A DNA stretch of 42,299 bases from positions 1-42,299 of the forward strand of contig CAIKMZ010000069.1 of NCBI GenBank assembly GCA_903828665.1. Reading direction: 5' to 3'. A program made the position numbers and the translations under genes. This DNA is from an uncultured beta proteobacterium (GTDB lineage: Bacteria > Pseudomonadota > Gammaproteobacteria > Burkholderiales > Burkholderiaceae_C). This document shows, piece after piece, positions 23,518 to 25,271 of this stretch. The notes below the pieces were generated by a model. The model was not told the DNA's origin, did not search any database, and worked only from the letters and a program-made list of their open reading frames with translations. Numbering within the stretch: the stretch's first letter is position 1; each line of letters begins with the position of its first letter.

Positions 23518-23581
23518 ACCTGCAGGGAACAGCCATACGCATAGCATTTGAACTGTGTAATTAATACGAACAGCTAATTAG

Positions 23582-23773
23582 ACAGTGCAATCGTGGTGTT
23601 TGCGCTCCTTGTTTGCGCAGTCCGATCACATGAAGTTTGCTTGATTGGTTGTTGAATAAACAACATATTAAAGCCTTCAGATGGGAGGGATCAAATTAAA
23701 CTTGACTGGACAGTCCAAATTGAATCATCATTGAACTGTACAAATAAATGGATTGTCGTTGTACAGTCCAAAT
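23582..23773. promoter_or_regulatory. Repeated ACAGTCCAAAT-type motifs around the MerR-cyclase start
   Basis: ACAGTCCAAAT occurs at 23710-23720 and again at 23763-23773, 53 bp apart (about five helical turns). Between them is ACTGTACAAAT (23735-23745). A weaker ACAGTGCAAT is at 23582-23591. The first copy lies in an 11 bp palindrome TGGACAGTCCA (23707-23717), and the second and third contain TGTACA. The spacing and position directly before the start suggest binding sites for the MerR-type domain of the encoded protein (inference). This spacer is more AT-rich than its surroundings and no clear -35/-10 pair is assigned. Confidence 0.5.
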
Positions 23774-23777
23774 AGCC

Positions 23778-25271
23778 ATGTTAAGCAGTCTGGAAGTCAT
23801 GCAGCAGTCGGGAATCTCCCGCGCAACCTTGCACAACTACATCGCGCTGGGGCTGTTGCCGAAGCCGCTGGTGCGAAATCCGGGTGACGATCCAAGCACG
23901 CGTGCGCGGCAGATTGGCTACTTCCCGCCGGAGGTGCTCGCGCGCATCGAACAGATCAAGTCAAGCAAGAAGCAAGGCATGGCCATGGCAGACATCGTTC
24001 GTCTGCTGGTGCCCGTCAATGGCACAGTCGCTGCCACGGCGGCGCCGGTCCAGACCGCTGCGGACGAAGCCGGCCCAGCGGCCAAAGCGTCACCGTCTAC
24101 GCCTGCCCACGCCACGGCGGCGGCCGAGACCGGCCCGCTGCGGCTCACCGTCGACAAACTGCCTTGCCCGGCCTACATGCTCAACTACAAGCTCGAGCTC
24201 AGCTGGTACAACGAGGAAGCCCGCATCGGCTTGCTGGGATCTTTCGAGAAACTGCCCGCGGATACCAAGGAACGCGTCGTTACCGATTTCTTTGCCATGG
24301 GCCGCTTCGGCCGGAGCCCGCAGAATTGCGCGGCTTTCCTCCAGTTGCACCAGCAGATGGGCCGCACGCGCGCACCTGACGCAGCCGGCATACCCTCGCT
24401 CGGCGCCGCCGCCAGCCACAGCAGCCCGATCTCGGACTGGCCCCTGACGCTGACGACGCCGGACGGCAAGGAAGAACACTTCCGGGTTTATGCCTCGCGT
24501 TTTCGCGAGGGCATCCTGGTGATATTTGCCAGCGAAGCCATCGGCCACGGGGGCCTGCTGGGCATGCTGGAGCGGCGCGACGACGTCATCCGCAACCTGC
24601 TGAAGAAGCGCCTGCCCGTTCTCACCGATGTGGCGGTCATGGTGGCGGACCTGCAAAGTTCGGTCCGGATCTGCTCGGAACTGCCGCCGGAAGAATACTT
24701 CGAGCTGATCAACCAGATATGGGCAACGATGGAGCCGATCTTCCGGCGCTACTACGGCACGCACGGCAAGCATGTCGGCGACGGCATGGTCTATTACTTC
24801 TTCCCCCAACCCGACAGCAACTATGTCTACAACGCCCTGTGCTGCGCCAACCAGATTCGCGACGCCATGCGCAAGATCAGCAAGGAGTGGCAGTTGCGCA
24901 AGAACTGGCTGAACGATCTTTACCTGAACACCGGCCTGAATGAAGGCCAGGAATGGCTCGGTGTCTTTCACATCGAGACCAAGATCGAATTCACGGTGCT
25001 GGGCGACACCATCAACCACGCTGGCAGGCTGTCGGACTTTGCGCGCCAGGGCGCGCTGTGGGCGACTAAGAACCTGATGGGAAAGCTCTCCACCGAAGAA
25101 CGCAACAAGGTGCGTTTCGGCGTGCGCCGGCAGGATCAGGATCGGCGCGAAGTGTTCGTCAAATCGACCTACTCCCGAGTCTCGGAATTGATCGACCTCG
25201 ACTCACCGCGCAACGAAAAGATGCGCGACATCGCGGCCCTCGCCGTGACCGAGATCGTTGAAATCGACTGA
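23778..25271 (+). CDS. MerR-type DNA-binding domain fused to PAS-like domain and class III adenylate/guanylate cyclase
   Basis: A 497-residue fusion from ATG 23778. Residues 1-75 form a MerR-like winged helix (LEVMQQSGISRATLHNYIALGLLPKP). An Ala/Thr/Pro linker (about 85-120) follows, then a PAS/MmyB-like ligand domain (about 125-270, PCPAYMLNYKLELSWYNEEA). The class III cyclase domain (about 275-480) has metal Asp291 and Asp335 (44 apart), base-binding Lys331 and Thr406, and Asn413 and Arg417 for transition-state binding. This set predicts an active cyclase, probably for ATP given the Lys/Thr pair. The protein should bind DNA and make a cyclic nucleotide in one chain. ATG 23748 is an alternative start; 23778 is preferred because the third operator-like repeat lies between them. 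No clear ribosome site precedes either. Confidence 0.88.
   Translation: MLSSLEVMQQSGISRATLHNYIALGLLPKPLVRNPGDDPSTRARQIGYFPPEVLARIEQIKSSKKQGMAMADIVRLLVPVNGTVAATAAPVQTAADEAGPAAKASPSTPAHATAAAETGPLRLTVDKLPCPAYMLNYKLELSWYNEEARIGLLGSFEKLPADTKERVVTDFFAMGRFGRSPQNCAAFLQLHQQMGRTRAPDAAGIPSLGAAASHSSPISDWPLTLTTPDGKEEHFRVYASRFREGILVIFASEAIGHGGLLGMLERRDDVIRNLLKKRLPVLTDVAVMVADLQSSVRICSELPPEEYFELINQIWATMEPIFRRYYGTHGKHVGDGMVYYFFPQPDSNYVYNALCCANQIRDAMRKISKEWQLRKNWLNDLYLNTGLNEGQEWLGVFHIETKIEFTVLGDTINHAGRLSDFARQGALWATKNLMGKLSTEERNKVRFGVRRQDQDRREVFVKSTYSRVSELIDLDSPRNEKMRDIAALAVTEIVEID

Follow-up and report, generated by a model that had tools for sequence, protein, structure and literature searches.

A putatively self-repressing MerR-PAS-class III cyclase and a conserved 13-bp box in the promoters of its family

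The roles of the key residues in class III nucleotide cyclases are well established: aspartates that bind metal, residues that contact the purine, and residues that act in the transition state. Some mycobacterial class III cyclases carry LuxR-type helix-turn-helix (HTH) domains. To our knowledge, fusions of DNA-binding domains to enzymes that make second messengers have been little studied. Classical activators of the MerR type have their operator in a promoter with a long spacer of 19–20 bp. According to the excerpted text of two articles, PmlR2, a repressor of the LitR/CarH family, has TGTACA-N12-TGTACA sites over the -35 element and between the start site and the start codon (PMC9758184), and BluR represses from the -35 element and the spacer, with a GTACA motif (PMC3509220). 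In further excerpts, MltR is an MmyB-like regulator with a bound fatty acid (PMC3406030), and FG214 is an HTH-PAS one-component regulator with a heme PAS domain (PMC13060918, a preprint).

No description of a fusion between MerR and an adenylate or guanylate cyclase was found in the titles and abstracts of the open-licence PMC papers listed by the searches, and in the excerpted part of PMC1592074 MerR appears only within a list of HTH types. Here we analyzed such a fusion in a contig of 42,299 nucleotides from an uncultured beta proteobacterium (the whole stretch is referred to as the window). What is new is a conserved near-palindromic 13-bp box, TTRNACWGTNYAA, in the promoters of the family. 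We regard it as reasonably likely, from the sequences compared below, that the protein is a self-repressing sensor cyclase with cAMP as its output and its own gene as its main DNA target.

An earlier sequence-only reading had placed the open reading frame at 23778–25271, and translation and the starts of homologues confirmed it. A longer open frame of 507 aa begins with the ATG at 23748 and also ends at 25271 (+ strand); the protein is taken as 497 aa because the in-frame ATG at 23778 is the start of the homologues. The layout of three domains (MerR, PAS-like and cyclase) proposed by that reading was borne out by Pfam, AlphaFold2, Foldseek and conservation (Table 1), and the structure prediction it had called for gave a winged HTH at residues 1–77, a PAS-like region at about 125–255, a helix, and the cyclase from residue 281. 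The AlphaFold2 model of the 497-aa protein, a monomer computed with 53 family sequences, has a mean pLDDT of 81.6 and a pTM of 0.53, and owing to this low pTM it does not fix the relative placement of the domains. Substitution rates were compared domain by domain in six pairs of homologues. The dN was 0.02–0.09 in the cyclase, 0.07–0.24 in MerR, 0.15–0.33 in the sensor and 0.56–1.08 in the linker, with a dS of at least 0.79 or saturated in the cyclase domain. As estimated from these pairs, constraint is strong on the cyclase and MerR domains, weaker on the sensor and slight on the linker.

Table 1. Features of the family gene and its upstream region in the window (positions on the forward strand).
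Feature	Position	Strand	Details and basis
Distal box 1, TTGAACTGTGTAA	23548..23560	.	box searches
Distal box 2, TTAGACAGTGCAA	23578..23590	.	box searches
Predicted -35, TTGACT	23702..23707	+	promoter scan
Box between -35 and -10, CTGGACAGTCCAA	23706..23718	.	1 mismatch; matrix and pattern searches
Predicted -10, CATCAT	23726..23731	+	weak, spacer 18; AATCAT with spacer 15 scores equally
Box at predicted transcription start, TTGAACTGTACAA	23731..23743	.	box searches, geometry
Box directly before start codon, TTGTACAGTCCAA	23759..23771	.	box searches
MerR-PAS-class III cyclase gene	23778..25271	+	497 aa
MerR-type winged HTH	23778..24008	+	residues 1–77, recognition region GISRATLHNYI; Pfam, AlphaFold2, conservation
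Low-confidence linker	24018..24140	+	residues 81–121, pLDDT <50; AlphaFold2
PAS-fold sensor domain	24150..24542	+	residues 125–255; separate structure prediction, Foldseek, Pfam of relatives
Conserved helix RRD.VIR.LL ahead of cyclase	24555..24614	+	residues 260–279; conservation, AlphaFold2
Class III nucleotide cyclase domain	24618..25268	+	residues 281–497; Pfam, alignment, AlphaFold2, Foldseek
Metal Asp 291	24648..24650	+	81/81 aligned proteins
Purine-contact Lys 331	24768..24770	+	81/81 aligned proteins
Metal Asp 335	24780..24782	+	80/81 aligned proteins; Gly in L006/L018
Thr 406, second purine-contact position	24993..24995	+	not conserved: T 35, A 23, V 22, I 1 of 81
Transition-state Asn 413	25014..25016	+	81/81 aligned proteins
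Transition-state Arg 417	25026..25028	+	81/81 aligned proteins

The C-terminal domain has the class III catalytic fold by both Pfam and Foldseek. It matches Guanylate_cyc at residues 283–440 (E 7.7e-10, over the cut-off), and its nearest solved folds are CyaB and CyaC, with a TM score of 0.79 by target and an E-value of 3.8e-12 for CyaB. Six residues had been named as catalytic in the window protein (D291, K331, D335, T406, N413 and R417), and all of them align with their counterparts in the solved adenylyl cyclases CyaB (3r5g) and CyaC (1wc1). Thus the two metal aspartates and the transition-state Asn and Arg are present, and K331 and T406 form the purine pair of Lys plus Asp or Thr for ATP. 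The invariance of D291 in the family is partly a matter of selection, as one of the scan patterns, VYYFFPQP and VADLQ[SGN]SV[RK], included this residue. As a key residue, T406 holds for the window protein but not for the family, in which only 35 of 81 proteins have Thr; since many relatives have Ala or Val instead, family-wide specificity for ATP is not secure. One MAG protein (L006 and L018, which are the same place) is otherwise intact and has Gly for the second metal Asp, which is either natural or a MAG error. The enzyme had been judged probably active, and the aligned catalytic residues together with strong purifying selection agree with an apparently active cyclase, whose product is probably cAMP made from ATP.

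At the other end of the window protein, the Pfam matches to MerR (E 2e-4) and MerR_1 (E 5.7e-4) are both under the curated cut-offs, and the MerR_1 profile matches all 53 family members at E<=1, with 3.6e-8 as the best. The AlphaFold2 model has helices at residues 4–11, 15–23, 52–65 and 70–77 and strands at 31–33 and 46–49, an order that we read as MerR topology; the family matches and the model together point to the N-terminal winged HTH of MerR proteins. The long dimerization helix of MerR, which forms an antiparallel coiled coil, is not predicted in the monomer model, where helix 70–77 is followed directly by the low-confidence residues 81–121. A B12-binding domain, the LitR/CarH feature, gave no Pfam match in the window protein at E<=10, and none is among the 25 of 34 Pfam families listed for the 53 family members.

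The sensor domain, predicted on its own, has a mean pLDDT of 82.7, and nearly all of the 50 Foldseek matches listed for it are of the PAS type (best E 2.3e-4). The best match is the heme PAS domain of FG214 (TM 0.41–0.42), followed by EcDos and FixL. These matches support a predicted PAS fold for the middle domain, though with modest TM scores of about 0.4. Moreover, the MLTR_LBD (MmyB-like) profile weakly matches 28 of the 53 members at E<=1 (best 8.6e-4), with no match to the window protein itself. Position 191 in the long PAS helix is His in 54, Tyr in 14, Asn in 8 and Gln in 3 of the 81 proteins, and with His in only 54 of them it is not a family-wide heme ligand. The conserved helix ahead of the cyclase may be the signal transducer.

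The homologue scan gave 211 confirmed loci, of which the best 80 were kept; together with the window they make up the alignment of 81 proteins. Judged by record titles, the loci belong to Comamonadaceae, Rhodoferax, Methylophilaceae, Gallionella, Rhodocyclaceae, Polynucleobacter, and a few Rhodospirillaceae and Thalassospiraceae. The sequence-only reading had placed related fusions in Burkholderiales; by these titles the range is wider and extends to Gallionella, Methylophilaceae, Rhodocyclaceae and some members of the last two families. Three divergent members (L047, L077 and L081) come from MAG records titled Bordetella parapertussis, and these titles seem doubtful for environmental bins. 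The family is patchy. At E<=1e-30 it was matched in 12 of 60 relatives; at E<=1e-60, 12 of the 399 genomes searched within the order had a match, as did 5 of 398 within the phylum. Each of these counts includes the window's own genome, and some matches are truncated or broken. No relatives were found in viral contigs or in phages, and the plasmid search returned seven records with cyclase-only matches.

For the promoter analysis we used 78 upstream regions, those of the window and 77 loci, leaving out L042 (a fragment at a contig end), L051 (a split gene) and L053 (too little upstream sequence). The exact 8-mer ACTGTCTA is present on either strand in 57 of the 78 regions, where mononucleotide shuffles lead to an expectation of 0.7. 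A weight matrix found 305 sites of at least 7 bits, against about 17 in mononucleotide shuffles; at least one site is present in 76 of the 78 regions and at least three in 63, the matrix having been trained on the same regions. When it was trained on the 26 regions up to L041, sites were found in 46 of the 52 others (dinucleotide shuffles 1.0) and at least two sites in 37 (shuffles 0.0), with six regions having none, and the reverse split gave sites in all 26; these splits are not fully blind, because the starting seed was drawn from all regions. Strong sites (15 bits) are concentrated at the family gene. Across the 80 fetched loci, the 300-bp upstream regions contain 156 of them, and the other 1.01 Mb contains 13; eight of the 13 are in the gene itself or no more than 601 bp upstream of it, and four precede the split gene L051. 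The region at 23.6–23.8 kb had been suggested as the place of the DNA target, and the putative boxes at 23548–23771 indeed lie in and around it. Each box may possibly be one half-site of a dimer operator. L065 is the sole intact homologue of the matrix set without matrix matches; it and some relatives have, by eye, a wider 16-bp form with the same half-site, TTAGACANNTGTCTAA, and box spacing thus seems to have changed within the family.

We also searched the window's own genome, a draft of 167 contigs, for boxes that are exact or have one mismatch. Four of its five exact sites lie before the family gene. With up to one mismatch there are 42 box-like sites (57 for the control pattern), of which five are packed into the 224 bp upstream of the gene; elsewhere no two sites are within 1 kb of each other. 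Autoregulation is favoured because this single cluster precedes the protein's own gene. Fisher values, which count related sequences as independent cases, and a binomial value chosen once the cluster was known are given no weight here. The fifth exact box (C107:6959–6971) was rejected as a second promoter target, being considered a coding coincidence, a judgement that is unproven: it encodes GLGQ(S/Y)KL within an open frame that we take to be holB, and it recurs at the same place in three other genomes (G030, G007 and G028). Another class III cyclase gene (C107:3515–4000) is some 3 kb away.

Seven genomes of the genus together have 30 exact boxes, 12 of them preceding the family gene and 18 in other places. 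G030 has eight exact boxes against one for the control, six of the eight being away from the family gene, and the other six genomes have 1 to 5 exact boxes against 1 to 6 control matches. In nine other family genomes, 11 of 24 exact boxes are at the family gene and 13 are single ones elsewhere (counts 0–6, controls 0–4). The single exact boxes elsewhere were not taken as targets, a reading that could be wrong for G030 and for G012, where one strong single box (19.2 bits) is away from the family gene; the excess in G030 and this strong box make further targets possible in relatives. A strict gapped form of the pattern had no match in 300 genomes of the order, the window's genome included, and hence was uninformative. 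On these counts, the DNA-binding domain appears to serve mainly its own promoter in the genomes examined.

In the mechanism that we infer, the protein itself would bind the boxes and act as a repressor, not as an activator; its cyclase would be a dimer that uses ATP, and signal and catalysis would be coupled. The PAS domain would receive a signal, with a small hydrophobic molecule, heme or flavin as candidate ligands. The helix RRD.VIR.LL would relay the signal to a class III domain acting as a homodimer, whose product, formed from ATP, is most likely cAMP. The MerR winged HTH would occupy the boxes that lie in the promoter spacer, at the transcription start and close to the start codon, and block RNA polymerase, so that the enzyme would stay scarce until the signal or the protein level changes. 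The protein would be a soluble cyclase and repress its own transcription. That the MerR-truncated homologues L015 and L139 retain the cyclase motifs suggests catalysis as the main function, with DNA binding as its governor.

An alternative that we consider unlikely, and that the sequence-only reading had raised next to local signalling at the promoter, is that operator DNA itself is an allosteric effector, so that catalysis differs between promoter-bound and free protein and the cAMP output would report operator occupancy or protein excess. The single putative target cluster in the own genome agrees with it, as do the highly conserved helix ahead of the cyclase and the presence of the DNA-binding and catalytic parts together in 78 of the 80 fetched loci, a count in which the score ranking favours full-length copies; residues 81–121, however, are of low confidence and variable and would make a poor lever, and two MerR-truncated homologues, L015 and L139, retain the cyclase motifs. 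If cAMP were made in proportion to the enzyme that is not bound to its own promoter, with operator DNA as allosteric partner, which again we think improbable, then gene dosage, signal sensing and cAMP output would be joined in one polypeptide.

The promoter geometry bears on the direction of control. TTGAC is found within 140 bp of the start codon in 68 of the 78 upstream regions. In these 68, counted from the first base of TTGAC, box centres cluster at 10–11 or 18–19 and at 34–35 or 38–40 bases, and smaller groups occur at other distances. In terms of the predicted promoters, the recurrent box places fall in the spacer that separates -35 from -10 and roughly at the transcription start. In the window a further box precedes the start codon, and the arrangement as a whole is one that a repressor would be expected to show. 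An autoactivator of the MerR type, which would distort its own promoter and turn it on with the signal, is quite unlikely. It would fit the box often present in the -35/-10 spacer, where MerR operators classically lie, but further boxes are at the start site and the start codon, where binding should block, and the long spacer of 19–20 bp is rarely found: the best -10 placements, with ties shared, have spacers of 16–18 bp in 46.8 of the 68 predicted promoters, 19–20 bp in 3.3 and 21–22 bp in 11.8. Spacers of 13–22 bp were allowed in this count with no length preferred; it was used instead of a narrower one (15–19 bp, 17 favoured), which put 63 of 68 at 16–18 bp. A second promoter element was seen at 23648–23666 of the window. 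Among the 26 regions of the nearer group, 14 have its motif (A/G)CAACA (3.2 in shuffles), which in 11 of the 14 lies 106–119 bases before the start, and five have TGTTG-N0-9-CAACA (0.06 in shuffles).

Defective homologues offer natural controls for which protein binds the boxes. No boxes were found at the MerR-truncated L015 and L139 (both of one genus), at L140, which has no MerR domain in the open frame and a gene with stops, or at L143 and L088, whose altered recognition helices read SRAALQSYKARG and SRAVLNSLVSLG, respectively. The five cases come from no more than four lineages, and two of the genes, L140 and L143, are degenerate. L143 (G298:C136) has R, R, S and H at positions 291, 331, 413 and 417 and shares its genome with an intact copy, L136, which has boxes; it is a weaker control, since with its catalytic residues lost it is probably a dead paralogue without an operator. 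All seven intact homologues outside the matrix set (L141, L142, L013, L014 and L191–L193) have at least one box, the weakest being L014 with one; L134–L138 duplicate members of the matrix set and were not counted among the seven, and L195 was left out because its offset had been misread. L051 was set aside as a MerR-less control. The gene is probably split, because its strong boxes are 1.6–1.8 kb upstream of the match and the cluster stands apart from the PAS-cyclase part as if an insertion had divided them.

The boxes could also be bound by another protein that was lost together with the MerR domain. That they belong to another regulator, with other targets for the MerR domain, we judge rather improbable: box binding by the MerR domain is putative, the conserved CAACA element near -118 in nearer relatives means that other regulators may act, and G030 has its excess of single boxes elsewhere, but the boxes track the intact recognition helix and are missing in the five MerR-defective homologues, and all 24 exact boxes in eight genomes of the genus without a listed family match are single.

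Conserved neighbours, which the sequence-only reading had proposed to look for, amount to lineage-specific operons only, no gene cluster being present in more than 13 of the 81 loci. In Gallionella-type loci (L030, L034, L036, L038, L040 and L051), a same-strand gene starts 9–12 bp past the last matched codon; in L030 and L034 it encodes PAS-GGDEF-EAL by Pfam, which suggests an operon linking cAMP and c-di-GMP signalling. In L046, L050, L056 and L065 a same-strand gene lies 24–50 bp downstream of the family gene. For L046 Pfam identifies it as another class III cyclase, the second at this locus, with an FHA domain. Adjoining it on the opposite strand is a gene in the same cluster as a protein kinase of L092. 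Four class III cyclases besides the family protein are encoded in the window's own genome, along with 11 cNMP-binding matches that pass the cut-offs, and thus cAMP from the family protein could find receivers.

A self-repressing sensor cyclase of this kind would be a compact natural device that combines sensing and cAMP signalling with a probable limit on its own expression. In addition, the family supplies a concrete putative operator together with controls made by evolution, so that DNA control of a cyclase becomes directly testable.

Compared with known systems, the window protein resembles the photoactivated adenylyl cyclase OaPAC as a sensor-cyclase fusion, with a PAS-type sensor where OaPAC has BLUF. 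For the photoactivated cyclases, and likewise for the mycobacterial ones bearing HTH domains, we know of no described self-operator. MltR and FG214 also join an HTH to a PAS-type ligand domain; the HTH is of the Xre type in MltR and of the MerR type here, and the excerpted accounts of both regulators describe no fused cyclase, which the window protein has. The N-terminal MerR HTH is common to the window protein and the LitR/CarH and MlrA/BluR branch. As differences from this branch, no B12 domain was found here, an enzyme is fused, and the DNA sites are 13-bp units of TTRNACWGTNYAA. The placement of the repressor sites, as given in the excerpts on PmlR2 and BluR, parallels that of the boxes in the window promoter. 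Finally, CyaB and CyaC have the same catalytic fold, the same six key residues and the same Lys/Thr purine pair; in the window protein, unlike in them, the cyclase is preceded by a MerR-type DNA-binding domain and a PAS-type domain.
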